A model generated the notes under the pieces. That model had not been told where the DNA came from and searched no databases. It was given only the letters and a program-made list of their open reading frames with translations. The position numbers were made by a program, and so were the translations under genes. 10,044 bases of DNA from Entrophospora sp. SA101 (taxonomy: Eukaryota > Glomeromycota > Glomeromycetes > Entrophosporales > Entrophosporaceae): positions 10,180 through 20,223 of the forward strand of contig CAUDNR010001034.1 of assembly GCA_958430865.1 (NCBI GenBank). Direction: 5' to 3'. This document shows positions 1,600 to 10,041 of the stretch, piece after piece (position 1 is the first letter of the stretch; each line of letters starts with the position of its first letter).

Positions 1600-3015
1600 T
1601 TATAATTCTAATGTATGGAAATCTGTAAAACAATTTCTATTATCCTTGAAACATAGTGTAACTTTACATAAACTGCAGTAAACTACAGATTTTAATTCAT
1701 TACTTGAAGATTTCCCTTCTTCTTTTTGCCTTTTGTATCAGCACCACACAAAAGTTTTTCTCTTATCCATTTCAGGAAAATGTCTACCAAGCCTTAATCT
1801 TTCTGTAGGTAAAGCAAGATTACTTGTTGTTATGTAAATTGCTCTATCATTTCTTGAAGTTCTTGAAGTACTTCTTGAAGTACTTCTTGATTTACTTCTT
1901 GAACTTCTAATATTAATATCATTTTTTTCATCCAAACCAGAATTAATTAAATCCCAAGCCAAGTTTATTCTAAAATCTTTGTGATCCAAATCTCCATTGC
2001 AATTTTTATGAATTAAGTAACAATTAACAATTACAGTATCTAGTAACCAAAAGAACATCGGTATCCAAGTTCTCCTGGCTGTCAATTGAGTAGCATAATA
2101 ACCACGTAATTGATCAGCTATGTCTACACCACCCATATGAGCATTGTAATCATCTATTACTTTTGGAATTGGGAGAGATTTTTTAACTGCATTTCCAAAT
2201 ACTTGTCTGACTTTTGCTGCATTTGTACTTGTGATCCTTGGACAACGACGTATTTTTTCTACTCTATTTTCTGCACCAGTAATTTCATGGATTGTAGTCA
2301 ACATTGTTACTGGGCCATTGTCCATCCACAAAATTGATAATACATCATCCACAACAACTCCACTAAGTGTGTCCCAATCTAATTTTTTATCAGTCTTCAG
2401 AACATTTGGAAATTTGGAAGAATTTTTACGTACAGTACCACATGCACCAATTTTTTTTTCACTTAAATAATTAAATAAATTTATGCTACTAAAATAGTTG
2501 TCCATATAAATGTTAAAAGATTTACCAATTGGCAATTCTTTTAATAAATGATAAACTTCACATCCTGTTAGACTCACTCCTGGTATATTTTGAATAAATG
2601 AATTCTTTTTAATTCTTGATGTGAACATAAAATTATATGTATACCCTGCATCACACAAAGCAAATACTTTATATCCTTCAGGAGTAGGTTTATTTTTCAT
2701 TCTAATAGTATGAGGACTTCTACCAGAAAATCTAATAATCATTTCATCAACTGATAAATTTGAGGAAGGAAGGTAATATTTCATGCAACTATTTAAAATA
2801 GATGATGCAAGTGGTTCGATTTTGTGATACCATGGAGTATTTTCTTGAATGTTTTCAGTTGGATCTGAGACATGAAAATATCTTTTAATTTGCTCGAATT
2901 TGATTAAAGACATGTATTCAGTAATTTTATGTTGTGGATATTTATCAGAAGTTTTCCAATAATCTCTCATTGATGGTACAAAAAAATTTACGATTTTTTC
3001 CCAATTGCATGACTT
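1600..3015 (-). pseudogene. piggyBac-type transposase (DDE_Tnp_1_7), N-terminally truncated, one nonsense codon
   Basis: The frame is open from 3015 (stop at 3016-3018) down to TGA at 1738-1740; the first ATG is 2970. Numbered from that Met, the catalytic aspartates are D75 (NLSVDEM), D157 (IYMDNYFSS) and D283 with D286 (MGGVDIADQ), the piggyBac DDD arrangement. After the TGA the same frame continues 45 codons to TAA at 1600-1602 and encodes the typical C-terminal Cys-rich finger: CVWC-like (FVWC) before the stop, then YCSLC, LCF, NC and DFH after it. The TGA sits where CGA (Arg) would be expected, so it looks like one C-to-T change. An S/R repeat (about residues 354-376) comes from a 12-bp microsatellite at 1851-1906. 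About 100 N-terminal residues are missing upstream of KSCNWEKIVNFFVPS. Tryptophans are TGG, so the standard code applies. Not functional as it stands. Confidence 0.9.
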
Positions 3016-3195
3016 TTAAAGAAAGTTATACGAAAACCACAAGGACAACACCCGAAAATTTTTTTACATGCCAATCGGCTGAATCTCAAAGATCATTTTC
3101 GTATTAGGAAGTGATACCCTCAAAAAAAATTTTTTATAACAGAAAAAAAATTTCGGCTATCAATAGCCGAAAAACCGTTTAAGGGATAGTTATGA
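3016..3195. repeat. Non-coding transposon edge with perfect hairpin and TTAA
   Basis: No coding frame is visible between the piggyBac and DUF7869 relics. The strip holds homopolymer-rich DNA and a perfect 9-bp stem with a 4-base loop at 3151-3172 (TTTCGGCTA, TCAA, TAGCCGAAA). TTAA lies at 3179-3182. Reading inward from this TTAA on the minus strand gives TTAAACGGTTTTT; reading inward from TTAA at 1583-1586 on the plus strand gives TTAAACGATTTAA. A TTAAACGRTTT pair bracketing the piggyBac gene could mark the element ends (target TTAA), but the repeat is only 7 bases and lacks the usual CCC start, so boundaries are tentative. Confidence 0.4.
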
Positions 3196-4022
3196 TTGAG
3201 CCCAAATGTTCATGTACCACATTCTGATCAGCAAGTAAGTAAAATTTATTACCTTAGTCCATGTAAAGTTCATTTATTTGGTATTCAAGATGAAGCAGTA
3301 AGGGAACAAATTAATTATGTTCTTAATGAAGATGAAATTATAGGAAAAGGTCCTAATGGCACTCTTAGTATGATTTTTGATGGAATTAAGAAATTGAATA
3401 AAGGTGAAAAACATTTAAAGATTACTTGTGATAATGCAGGTGGACAAAATAAAATAACACCACTATTTGGTTTTATTTATATTTGGTAATTTGTGGTTAT
3501 TATGAAAGTGTTGAATTGAACTTCATGATTGCTGGACACACTAAATTTAAATGTGATGGCAATTTTGGGTTGATTAAAAAACTCTACAGAAGAACAAGAG
3601 TAGATTGTTTGGATCATGTGGTTGAGGTGGTAAAAAAGTCTAGTCCAGCAGGATTGAGTAGAGCTCAATGTTATGAAGGTGGAAAAGGTTTTCAATATTT
3701 AGATATTAAAGCAATTTTGGGAATTTATTTCAAGAAATTACCAAGTATACAAAAATATCAACATTTTCTTTTTGAAGCATCTAACCTTGGTGTGGTCAAA
3801 GTTCAAGAAGTTGCTAATGGACCTTTTACTGAATTCAATTTATTGAAAACCAAGAAATCAGATATTTTTGAAGAGATTAAAACTTTATCTATTTTAGTAT
3901 TAACACCTCCTCCTTTGGATTACAAAAGACAAGAATATCTTTATCATAATATTCACCCATTTGTGAAAGATGAATACAAAAATATTACTTGTCCAAGACC
4001 ATTCTATACCAGAAGTGAATAA
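3196..4022 (+). pseudogene. DUF7869-type transposon protein, C-terminal part, one frameshift
   Basis: The first part (3196-3454) carries NVHVPHSDQQV, KVHLFGIQDEA, Q-INYVLNEDE, GKGPNGTLS and ITCDNAGGQNK. The second part (frame from about 3453 to TAA at 4020-4022) carries NNTTIWFYLYLVICGYY, GHTKFKCDGNFGLIKK and LTPPPLDYKRQEYLYHNI. These blocks in this order are what I know from DUF7869 proteins of eukaryotic transposons (DNC.GQNKN, then GHTK..D..FG.IK), thought to be an RNase H-like DDE core. The two frames join if one A is restored in the A-run at 3451-3454 (GGQNK|NNTT). The N-terminal half is absent; the match begins abruptly just right of the hairpin strip. TAA is the stop. No zinc-finger N-terminus and no terminal repeats were found nearby. 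Confidence 0.75.
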
Positions 4023-4223
4023 AATATTTAGAACAAAAACACCTTCATCACTTCCTTGCTGTTATCAAGTTTTAATAAATTTAATCTTTTGACAAATATT
4101 GTTAGTTTTAAAGTAAAAGATACTAAAATAATTTATATACTTAATATGCACTCATAAAAAGGATATAAGTATATTAGTATATTAAAAGAGCAAATAAATA
4201 AAACAAATAAAAAAAAGAAAATC
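4023..4223. other. AT-rich intergenic stretch; probable junction between fungal and code-4 DNA
   Basis: Between the DUF7869 stop and the first TGA=Trp gene is about 200 bp of AT-rich DNA with no ORF. A bacterial-like promoter could be read as TTGTTA (about 4100) and TACTAAAAT about 17 bases on, but such matches are common by chance in this composition. No ribosome-binding site is convincing before ATG 4224 (only A-rich sequence). If the following block is inserted DNA, its left junction should lie here; no target duplication is visible. Confidence 0.4.
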
Positions 4224-5211
4224 ATGGTAAATATTATAGAATCGCAACAAGTCAATAAAGAATTGCTAAGTCAGATTGCTGATTTAGAAAAACAATTAGC
4301 AGATAATGATCAAGGAAGAGAACAAGGAATCCCCAGAAAAGAAATAATCTTAACCAAAGAAGAAATAAGAAAAGCAGTTGGTAATTTAGATAGGAATCTA
4401 GAGGAGAAATGTGTAAGGGAAATTCAAGATTATTTTGAATACCAATCTTTTGCATTAGAACACTTAAAAGACAAAAAGTTTAAGGTATCCTATATTCGTC
4501 TTATTTACTTACATAAATCTACACTTTATTCTTGAATAGAACTTGACAAAGAAGCTAAGGGTTTAAGAATAGAGAACAACGAATTAAGTCAACAAAAGTG
4601 AGAATATGAGGAGAAAATAAAAGAATTGAACAAGTATAAAGAGCAAATTGAAGAATTAGAAACAAAACTTACAGAAACCTTGTCAGTTTGACATAAGGAA
4701 CAAGAAGAAATCGATGATATTTCTTGAGATGAGCAAATTCATAACTGAGACTTAGGAGAGTTAAAAGAATTAAAAAGTAGAAATAGGGGAAAATTTAAAT
4801 AAAATTATTTTCACAGCTATTGAAAAACTATATCAAACTTCTAAAGACCTAGCTGAGGCAATTAATACAGTTGAAGAATGAAAAAACTGACAAAAAGATC
4901 TTTTGAATGATGAAATCAAACAAAAATCACTAATGCTACAAAAATCTGATAAAATGCTTGAAGAGGAGGTAACAAAAAATACAAAACCACAAGAGGAGTC
5001 AGAAGAGAAATCAAAAATGTTAGCAAGAGGTGAGGAAAGAGAGGAAGAACTAAATAGACAACTTTATTTAGAAAGAAAACCCTTGCCTGCTTTACCTAAA
5101 AAATGAAATACTTTCCAAAAATTAGGTTCAAGAATTAAGACCAATTTCCAAAAATTTCAACACTTGATGGAAAATAAAAAACATCAAGTTGAGAATTTAC
5201 CACTTGAATAG
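4224..5211 (+). pseudogene. Coiled-coil protein in TGA=Trp code (gene A), one frameshift
   Basis: Read with TGA as Trp, the frame from ATG 4224 stays open through TGA codons at 4533, 4599, 4689, 4725 and 4746. It shifts by one base in the A-run at 4772-4776 (LKELK|VEIGENLNK), then continues through TGA at 4879, 4888 and 5104 to TAG at 5209-5211. That is about 328 residues with eight TGA and no TGG codon. The protein is mostly charged coiled coil (ELETKLTETL, KEQIEELETK, EEEVTKNTK), with a proline-containing LERKPLPALPKKW segment near the C-terminus and a basic tail. There is no signal peptide and no membrane segment. It lies 31 bp upstream of gene B on the same strand, like a bacterial operon, and shares an EEWxxWQKxxLL motif with it. 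I do not recognise a named family. Code-4 Mollicutes-related origin is inferred from codon use, composition and context. Confidence 0.7.
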
Positions 5212-5242
5212 AAGTAAAAGTTAATTAGTTTATTTTACTATT

Positions 5243-6225
5243 ATGAGAGAATTTCTTTACACTATTTTGGAGTTAGAAGAATGACATAGCAGTAATTCTA
5301 CTTGTGTTTTTTGCTCTGGTTTGAAAAAGGCAGTTTGTCAAATAAGAACACGAAGCAAGGCAATTGGCAAAATGATTGAAAGTGATAAGGCTTGTGAAAG
5401 TTGTAAAGAAAAGTTTGAAAATGATGAATTGCCTAAATGTAGTTGTGGAAGATTAAAGACTAGATACACTTGTGATTGTAAAGAAGAAGAGAATAAAAAA
5501 GAACTCCCTCTATTACTTCATCAAAACAGGGGAATGGCATTTTTTTACGTACGACAAATAAATTCTTTACAAGAACAACTAACTAGACCAAAGAGGCACT
5601 AGAAGTTGAAAGAGAAGAAGTAGCTAAGTTTCAGGAAAAATCTGAGGAGTGAGGCAAATGACAAAAACAAGAGTTGTTAGATAAGATTAAACAACAAGAA
5701 GCAGAAATTATTAAATTGACTCAGAAAATTGAACAATTGAAAACTTTAACCCCTCAAGAGTTAGTCAATAAGTTAAATGCTTATGAGACAGAGAATGAGA
5801 AATTAAAGAACCAGTTAGAACAATTACAACAGAATGGTCAATTAACTGCACAAATTGAAATTAAAGAAACTAAGAAATGACCTTGATTGAAAATAAGAAA
5901 GTAATTTAAAGAATATTGAGGAAGTATTTTCCTCTAATATAAATGAAATTCATTCCAACTGTCTTTTAGATAAAGTTAAAGAAAATATCCTGGCTTTTGA
6001 TATCTTATTATGATATCCAACATAATGAAAAGGCAGCTACATTATTACTGATAAAAATAAGATTTACATTCTTTCTGATTACAAATGTAACTATAGCACT
6101 ACTGGATCTAGTATCTATCATGTTAAAATTACTGTCTCTGACTTAAAGATGAAGATTTTGCCAAAGTTGCTGATGAATATAAAAACAATCCTATTTGATT
6201 ATGAATAGCCCATATAACTTTTTAA
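5243..6225 (+). pseudogene. Cys-rich finger plus coiled-coil protein in TGA=Trp code (gene B), several lesions
   Basis: ATG 5243 opens MREFLYTILELEEWHSS with TGA (5282) as Trp, followed by cysteine pairs CVFC, C-x11 or so, CESC, CSC and CDC up to about residue 82, a probable zinc-binding finger. A coiled coil follows (about residues 105-210, IKQQEAEIIKLTQKIEQL), then a less charged C-terminal domain (IYILSDYKCNYSTTGSSIYH ... NNPIWLWIAHITF) ending in TAA 6223-6225. TGA codons are at 5282, 5650, 5659, 5878, 5884, 6011, 6026, 6196 and 6202; no TGG. Lesions: one base missing near 5587, one extra A near 5896, TAA at 6023-6025, one A missing near 6147. Reading across them gives about 327 residues, almost the length of gene A. 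Function unknown. The C-terminal frame is convincing because Trp-coding TGAs recur in it, but the joins at 5896 and 6147 are my inference. Confidence 0.62.
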
Positions 6226-6290
6226 TTGCTATGATCTATGTTGTTAAAAGAATTAAAAGAAAAAAATAAATCAATATTATAACAATGAGG

Positions 6291-6557
6291 TTATTTTCCT
6301 TCTAAGGGTTTCTGCTTTTTGTTAGGTAATAATACACTTTCATTTTGCTTTCTTTTCTTAACATTTATTATTTTTCTTTCCTCTTGGTAAATTTCATAGG
6401 TAATCCTTTCTTTATCCAAATATATTTGCAAGGATTTAGTATCTTCTAATTTAAAAATATAAGGAGCAATTTTTTCACCTTGTTCCTTCTTCAAAATACT
6501 TTTAATGGTGCTATAATTCTTTGGTTCCATAGTAGATCTGATGTAAATTAGCTTCAT
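6291..6557 (-). CDS. Hypothetical protein, 88 residues, basic C-terminus
   Basis: ATG at 6557, TAA at 6291-6293. It converges on gene B, 65 bp away. The protein starts MKLIYIRSTMEPKNYSTIKS and is lysine/glutamate rich, with a very basic tail (VKKRKQ, PNKKQK). It contains no Trp, so it does not test the genetic code. Composition resembles genes A and B (AT-rich codons, Lys/Glu/Ile bias), and it may belong to the same inserted block, but it could equally be a chance ORF in AT-rich DNA. No recognisable ribosome-binding site or promoter; no domain that I can name. Confidence 0.4.
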   Translation of the reverse strand: MKLIYIRSTMEPKNYSTIKSILKKEQGEKIAPYIFKLEDTKSLQIYLDKERITYEIYQEERKIINVKKRKQNESVLLPNKKQKPLEGK

Positions 6558-6666
6558 ATTAACTATTTTTATATAGAGGTAATTCTATATATCACTTAAG
6601 ATAACAAAATGGAATATTATAAAACTATTAATTATAATCACATTATGAAATGACTAAATTTTGATC
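6558..6666. other. AT-rich spacer, probable right junction of the code-4 block
   Basis: This 109-bp gap holds no ORF or RNA gene that I can see. If the block from about 4.1 kb is integrated foreign DNA, its right junction lies between the gene B stop (6225) and the MITE at 6667, with 6558-6666 the likely place if the small minus-strand ORF belongs to the block. Confidence 0.3.
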
Positions 6667-6967
6667 CCTGAAATTCTTGGTATTACGAATGTTCACTTTG
6701 TCTGGTTTTGTTGCAGCATGCCCCGTATTATAGTTGAATATAAATAATAATATTATTATATTTTTCATAATATTATATCAAAATTATTAATAAAATATTA
6801 ATGCTAAAATAGAATCGTCAACCACATTACCTTTTAAACATGCATTATTAAAGAAAGCATTACTTTTAAGAATAAATAAAAATAAATTTTCAATAAAAAA
6901 ATTATATATGGGACATACTGCAACAAAACCAAACAAAGTGAACATTGAAATTACCAAGAATTTCAGG
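6667..6967. mobile_element. MITE, 301 bp, with 58-bp terminal inverted repeats
   Basis: 6667-6724 and the reverse complement of 6910-6967 match at 51 of 58 positions by my count. Both begin CCTGAAATTCTTGGTA and share ATGTTCACTTTGT and TGGTTTTGTTGCAG. The 185-bp interior is almost pure A/T with no ORF. TGAT occurs just outside both ends (6662-6665 and 6968-6971), with one extra C on the left, which could be a 4-bp target duplication. The superfamily is not clear. A further copy of the inner motif (ACTAGACAAAGTGAACAT) lies at about 7049-7066 in the orientation of the right repeat. Confidence 0.75.
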
Positions 6968-7162
6968 TGATTATAAAATTTGTTCTTTTCTTGGGATTGC
7001 CTCTAGACAAAAGTAAAGATGGTTCTGCACCAGTTGCAAAATTCAAAACTAGACAAAGTGAACATTTGTATATACACCAAAGAAGGACCTCAGGCCAAAA
7101 GGAAATTTGTTTGCAGTTAAAAATAAGTTTAATTAATTTAGAGGATTTTTTTTTTTTTTTTA
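6968..7162. other. Non-coding spacer with a partial MITE-like motif and a long T run
   Basis: No supported gene. The strip carries AAAACTAGACAAAGTGAACA at about 7046-7065, close to the right repeat of the preceding MITE, which suggests a remnant of a related element. A run of 16 T follows at about 7146-7161, next to the RING gene stop. Short ORFs exist on both strands but show no codon or domain signal. Confidence 0.35.
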
Positions 7163-9893: not shown

Positions 9894-9968
9894 AACGATC
9901 AACCATTGTGACCAGCCCCAATAATTTATATTTGGTGCTTTCCCTATTGCGGAGTAGATTTCTTATAT
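9894..9968. other. Short spacer between pogo element and right Tc1/mariner-like end
   Basis: About 75 bp without ORF or RNA signal. It separates the two mobile elements and shows no matching target duplication with the left flank of the pogo element beyond the TA dinucleotides. Confidence 0.3.
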
Positions 9969-10041
9969 ATAGTGCAGGACACCTAGTCCCACAACTTTTT
10001 ATTGGTCTTGTATATCCTTTAGTATACCAGAAATGGAAATG
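9969..10041 (+). mobile_element. Terminal end of a Tc1/mariner-like element (element extends right, outside window)
   Basis: TATAGTGCAGGACACCTAG opens a stretch matching the reverse complement of 44-117, including an identical run from TAGTCCCACAAC to ATTGGTC and a final ATGGAAATG. The terminus faces left, so the element body continues past the window end. It has lost the leading C of CAGTG. The two copies flank the window in opposite orientations as separate elements of one family. Confidence 0.6.

Follow-up and report, generated by a model that had tools for sequence, protein, structure and literature searches.

The stretch of DNA analyzed here (the window) comprises the final 10,044 bases of contig C904, which is 20,223 bases long and begins with 10,179 N. 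The contig belongs to the Entrophospora sp. SA101 assembly, which consists of 2123 contigs with a total length of 101.3 Mb. The block at positions 4224-6225 contains 17 in-frame TGA codons (8 + 9) and not a single in-frame TGG when the frameshifts are bridged; this direct count agrees with the initial annotation, in which the block was described as two consecutive genes that remain open only if TGA is a sense codon. Frames open under the Mollicutes code (code 4) are indeed present, and the longest forward one within 4200-6300 spans 200 codons, a length reached in none of 1000 dinucleotide shuffles (mean 87.1, maximum 179), but genes A and B are both broken and are followed by a third broken gene (Table 1). 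This copy is degraded, given the frameshifts near 4800 and 5600 and the TAA at 6023. The left flank, previously taken for a separate fungal transposon with TGG as the only tryptophan codon, turns out to be the transposase gene of the same element, which does use TGA in other copies; the Trp codon at the point of truncation of the transposase is TTG in the window copy and TGA in most of the copies.

Table 1. Features of the window that belong to the transposon family
Feature	Positions	Strand	Basis
Transposon copy, left-truncated, with cargo genes and right end	3186-6724	+	blastn against 20 loci
3' part of predicted DDE-type transposase (DUF7869), two frames, frameshift near 3483	3196-4022	+	Pfam PF25273, 1.7e-7; tblastn, codon table
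Gene A, coiled coil, 8 TGA; frameshift near 4800 (TAA at 4800-4802, another frame thereafter); pieces 4224-4802 (5 TGA) and 4801-5211 (3 TGA)	4224-5211	+	
Gene B, Cys-rich head and coiled coil, 5 TGA; broken near 5600 (TAG at 5600-5602; natural stop at 5902-5904); pieces 5243-5602 (1 TGA) and 5605-5904 (4 TGA)	5243-5904	+	Model of a relative
Third cargo gene, remnant; 4 TGA (6011, 6026, 6196, 6202), one TAA (6023-6025), one frameshift	5906-6222	+	Some copies only
Small reverse ORF, 88 amino acids, no TGA	6291-6557	-	Conserved along with the element
Element right end	6641-6724	+	
Right end of a second copy in reverse orientation, rest missing	6896-6985	-	50 bases at 90%

Elsewhere in the window, a piggyBac-type ORF (PF13843; 1600-2970, minus strand) stops at a TGA, and the readthrough frame yields a Cys-rich tail that resembles the piggyBac C-terminal domain; this TGA may be a plain nonsense mutation. 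A 56-base inverted repeat (86%; 70-128 versus 9957-10015), which also matches one end of locus L021, lies near both ends of the window and perhaps represents the ends of a larger element. Directly to the left of the transposon copy, there is a separate dispersed repeat (3012-3181) that is present in loci L011 and L019 as well.

The TGA-containing block is the cargo end of a dispersed family of DNA transposons of about 3.7-4.1 kb. The search with protein A yields 33 places in the same assembly, the block DNA has at least 66 matches (473 first-look candidates, 40 scored), and the transposase has at least 77 (1643 candidates, 74 scored). In the blastn comparison with the ∼10-kb loci around the block matches, homology to the window starts at 3186 in 8 of the 20 loci, whereas at the other side, 15 of the 19 right-end matches outside the window stop exactly at base 6724; furthermore, the copies in loci L016 and L019 align end to end over ∼3.7 kb at 85%. 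Dispersed copies with common ends, as expected of a cut-and-paste element, are therefore present, judging from the right end and from the L016/L019 alignment. As for terminal inverted repeats, a ACAAAGTGAACAT-like motif is found near the right end and the provisional left end of the element; a possible 8-base target-site duplication is seen in L019 only. The gene order in the copies is DUF7869 transposase, gene A, gene B, small reverse ORF and right end, and the junction between the transposase and the cargo (spanned by window 3462-5150) recurs on contig C1896 at 97% and is carried by diverged copies too. The DNA of the small reverse ORF is kept in most of the 20 loci, with code-4 frames in L016, L019 and L027. 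Two cargo types, exemplified by L019 and L027, can be distinguished, and the gene A of the window has matches to both. Many of the copies carry truncations or breaks. A one-off insert is rejected by the repetition of the block across the assembly, and the earlier interpretation of the block as a single endobacterial fragment of 2-2.5 kb does not survive in the face of this repetition, the common right end and the presence of the element's own transposase; nor is the block a counterpart of nuclear mitochondrial inserts, as had been proposed, being neither limited to one or a few copies nor devoid of mobility genes. The claim of decay holds for the window copy, but full-length transposase frames are kept in other copies.

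The transposase can be assigned by profile comparison to the DDE-type DUF7869 group: the L027 protein matches PF25273 at 1.5e-17 (64.2 bits, with a cut-off of 26), and the window piece at 31.5 bits. The L027 transposase is a single frame of 588 codons, in which codons 218 and 314 are TGA and codons 91, 139 and 405 are TGG. The sequence search retrieved 148 proteins, and among the best 120 of these, the closest named relatives come from Ambispora leptoticha, Gigaspora rosea, Diversispora eburnea and Geosiphon pyriformis, whereas one, P0029 (I3273_02745), is annotated in a metagenome-assembled genome (MAG) of Candidatus Moeniiplasma glomeromycotorum. P0029 is a truncated gene product of 329 amino acids, 54% identical to the element's transposase, and is known from its protein annotation rather than from DNA, codons or neighbours. 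In a tree of 107 rows, with SH-aLRT as the only measure of support, P0029, on a long branch, is the sister to the 15-row clade that includes the window transposase (support 99), and Rhizophagus-type proteins come next (98). One same-clade fungal annotation sits on a 1.19 Mb contig, and the Ambispora model P0012 seems, by eye, to fuse the transposase with a gene A-like part. Standard-code DUF7869 relatives are abundant in the same assembly; no relatives were detected in GTDB contigs and none in IMG/VR. Three transposase copies in the assembly, on contigs C28, C1489 and C1972, have 6 TGA as their only stop codons; they show 48% identity to P0029 and perhaps represent a second code-4 lineage.

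Gene A, which contains 10-12 TGA in better copies, has a sole database relative, P0001. Gene B is a member of a very large family, with at least 467 relatives in public sequence data, found for the most part on short contigs (1-3 kb); the best 120 of the 467 (P0122-P0241) are all unnamed or have generic names, and labels like ribosomal protein L29 appear to be spurious. The WxW tail of gene B is kept in 17 of the 20 relatives that were read, and two, P0162 and P0175, end just short of a Trp site. The model of a gene B relative combines a small beta-alpha head, rich in Cys, with a long helix and has no PDB match at E 0.001, and comparison with Pfam gives weak coiled-coil matches alone. The stretches aligned in the 20 loci do not include the third cargo gene; 95% matches to it are located on contigs C2041, C1295, C1057, C608 and C204.

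The reading of TGA as tryptophan, proposed in the initial annotation, is borne out by the codon comparison. Among the 265 distinct codons in Trp columns (five reference genes, 24 sources), 200 are TGA, 33 TGG, one TAG, one TAA and 30 are other codons; by this criterion, the genes of the element follow the Mollicutes code (table 4). The TGA/TGG ratio at these columns is 27/20 in the transposase, 128/1 in gene A and 45/12 in gene B, so that the possibility that the cargo never uses TGG is ruled out. Neither random decay nor RIP-like mutation is accepted as the origin of the TGA codons: the step from TGG to TAG ought to be roughly as easy as that from TGG to TGA, yet a single TAG stands against the 200 TGA. 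Both transposase TGA sites, 218 and 314, coincide with Trp of relatives: residue 218 is Trp in the aligned fungal and animal relatives, whereas at residue 314, Rhizophagus-type proteins have Trp but P0034, P0050 and P0074 have Phe. Residue 314 is missing from all eight aligned proteins of the clade with fungal names, as though the gene models skipped a TGA, the codon at this site being deduced from the protein models rather than from the DNA. Among the at least 77 transposase matches, which jointly contain 240 TGA, 86 TAA and 25 TAG, 39 are free of TAA and TAG, and 8 of these are full length (580 amino acids or more) and open only with TGA as a sense codon. Of the 122 listed matches to P0029, 85 cover its residue 50. 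Among these, 61 show 47% identity or more, with 60 containing TGA and 36 containing TGA alone; the 22 that show 43% or less include 12 free of stops, four that contain TGA and two that contain TGA alone (two matches at 44% were left out of the count).

Comparison of the copies under code 4 points to past purifying selection on the element genes. Relative to L027, the transposase has a dN/dS of 0.13-0.37, and the values for genes A and B are 0.19-0.60 and 0.11-0.35, respectively; relative to L019, gene A has a dN/dS of 0.34-1.14 and gene B, where defined, of 0.16-0.38. The low values hold between copies at dS of about 0.4, with the proviso that copies were selected by similarity, which biases the sample toward intact ones. 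Private changes in single copies stand at 0.38 of the neutral expectation in the transposase, at 0.66 in gene A and at 0.37 in gene B, with few stops; for shared changes, the corresponding values are 0.17, 1.22 (L027 type) and 0.37. Gene A is a weak case for constraint because its dN/dS reaches 1.14 and its shared-change ratio is 1.22.

The setting of the element is fungal, in agreement with the initial annotation. Eight of the 10 standard-code flank ORFs match Pfam at E 0.01 or better, and six exceed the curated cut-off, namely, a P4-ATPase, a kinase, a DNA polymerase B exonuclease, TLDc with BACK, and Tc5-type and Tc1/Tc3-type transposases, with a second kinase and PUA below the cut-off; the C1896 copy has an F-box gene nearby. 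Code-4 ORFs of at least 110 codons cover 0-48% of the flanks in 16 element loci, at GC 0.26-0.31, and code-4 ORFs cover 95% and nearly 100% of the bacterial controls L034 and L035, at GC 0.32; from this coverage and the fungal domains, a bacterial nature of the element-bearing contigs was rejected for those that were read. Mycoplasma-type bacterial contigs are also present in the same assembly: nine long synthetase matches, which contain 7-15 TGA but are free of TAA and TAG, map to eight contigs, TGA-containing integrases occur on bacterial contigs as well, and the three full-length bacterial 16S matches (C1138, C293 and C923) probably represent several endobacterial types. Among the matches listed, which involve 158 contigs, no element copy is on any of the 24 contigs classed as bacterial. 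The tRNA scan, in which 16 of 69 pattern matches were folded and the pattern of which can miss genes, identified a TCA-anticodon tRNA on the bacterial contig C792 (labeled SeC by ARAGORN under the bacterial code). In a search of the window and 22 loci, no tRNA gene was found in the vicinity of the element.

These observations could be accommodated by a scenario in which a fungal-type DNA transposon, adapted to the code of an endobacterium, is translated there and inserts into the fungal nucleus; we regard the chances of this explanation as even. The element would derive from fungal standard-code elements, to which its transposase is closest, and would have entered the mycoplasma-related endobacterium of the fungus, where drift to the bacterial code would have converted TGG to TGA, partially in the transposase and almost completely in gene A. 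Translation, we infer, would take place in the bacterium, with UGA read by a tRNA with the anticodon UCA, and the element DNA, along with the transposase, would reach the fungal nuclei, where discrete units would be inserted repeatedly by the element's own enzyme. A mycoplasma-type endobacterium as the likely source of the code was part of the initial annotation and is in accord with the TGA-rich bacterial contigs in the assembly and the relative in the Moeniiplasma MAG. The data show the code, the gene order, the high copy number, the common right end, the fungal surroundings and the past purifying selection under code 4, whereas the site of translation and the path of DNA and transposase into the nucleus are proposed. 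Several observations speak against the scenario: among the matches listed, no copy is on a contig classed as bacterial, P0029 is truncated and on a long branch, GTDB contigs yield no relatives, and constraint on gene A is weak in part of the comparisons. The stronger version of this scenario, a living cross-domain transposon with master copies translated in the endobacterium and new copies still inserting into the nuclei of several genera of arbuscular mycorrhizal fungi, falls somewhat short of an even chance.

Alternatively, the master copies could be nuclear, with the fungus itself decoding UGA as Trp via a suppressor tRNA or efficient readthrough; the element would then be a nuclear transposon read by a rule of its own. 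The location of all copies found among the matches listed on contigs not classed as bacterial, the constraint still apparent in private changes (0.37-0.66 of neutral) and the interchangeability of TGA and TGG in the transposase are compatible with this possibility, which is a serious if unlikely one: weak readthrough is hard to envisage because the 10-12 TGA of gene A are too many, the only TCA-anticodon tRNA found among the 16 folded pattern matches is bacterial, and the standard-code DUF7869 copies in the assembly mostly lack TGA, with two of 22 containing TGA alone. It appears rather improbable that the nucleus captured an old code-4 element a single time and that standard-code transposases acting in trans have since multiplied it as a passenger with dead frames; such relatives are abundant and many copies of the element are damaged, but eight contigs keep full-length TGA-only transposases, dN/dS between diverged copies is low, and private changes are below neutral.

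Fungal mitochondria likewise read TGA as Trp, so that the mitochondrion, or its plasmid or virus, might be the code-4 home, but this is very unlikely given the annotated Moeniiplasma relative and the lack of anything mitochondrial beside the element copies that were read, an observation that covers their flanks rather than mitochondrial contigs. A chimera of fungal and bacterial contigs deserves attention in an assembly that does mix the two, and endobacterial sequence is reported in 19 of 389 Mucoromycota assemblies (PMC11423566), where false positives are ascribed to a possible movement of fungal genes into endobacteria or to contamination. Such a chimera, an objection anticipated in the initial annotation, is highly improbable because the transposase-cargo junction recurs, shared at 97% by C904 and C1896 and present in diverged copies too; same-clade transposases are, moreover, annotated in four other fungal genera, in one case on a megabase-size contig. 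The original reading, a single decaying endobacterial fragment in the nucleus, is compatible with TGA as Trp and with the fungal flanks but can hardly be entertained in view of the many copies with a common gene order and right end and their own transposase.

If the preferred explanation, with the endobacterium as the site of translation, is correct, a DNA transposon of eukaryotic type has passed into an endosymbiotic bacterium, adopted its code and seeds the host nucleus in large numbers, leaving a sequence-readable record of the traffic between the bacterium and its fungal host and providing a means of testing how DNA leaves an endosymbiont; for a living cross-domain transposon, the genetic code would record which partner reads the element. 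If, instead, the fungus reads UGA as Trp, a new nuclear decoding rule would be implied. Fungal annotations already seem to contain genes of the element as broken models, as in the eight aligned proteins without the TGA-site residue. The literature search found no report of a nuclear transposon family in an endosymbiont's code, and DUF7869 was not found in the literature searched.

Among known systems, the DUF7869 protein P0024 of Rhizophagus irregularis (PF25273) is 39% identical to the element's transposase over 95% of the length and shares the conserved Trp at 218 and 314. Standard-code DUF7869 genes of fungi and animals are without TGA, whereas the element has TGA at Trp sites and a code-4 cargo. 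The Moeniiplasma protein P0029, from which the element differs in sequence and in length, has Trp at all three sites that it covers and is the sister of the element clade. Similarity to DDE-type integrases and transposases, such as retroviral integrase and mariner Mos1, is limited to about 10% sequence identity, with no Foldseek match at E 0.001 or better. Wolbachia inserts and NUMTs are pieces of chromosomes without mobility genes of their own; the element resembles these nuclear inserts of endosymbiont and organelle DNA in that endosymbiont-type DNA resides within the host nucleus but differs in being a many-copy transposon.
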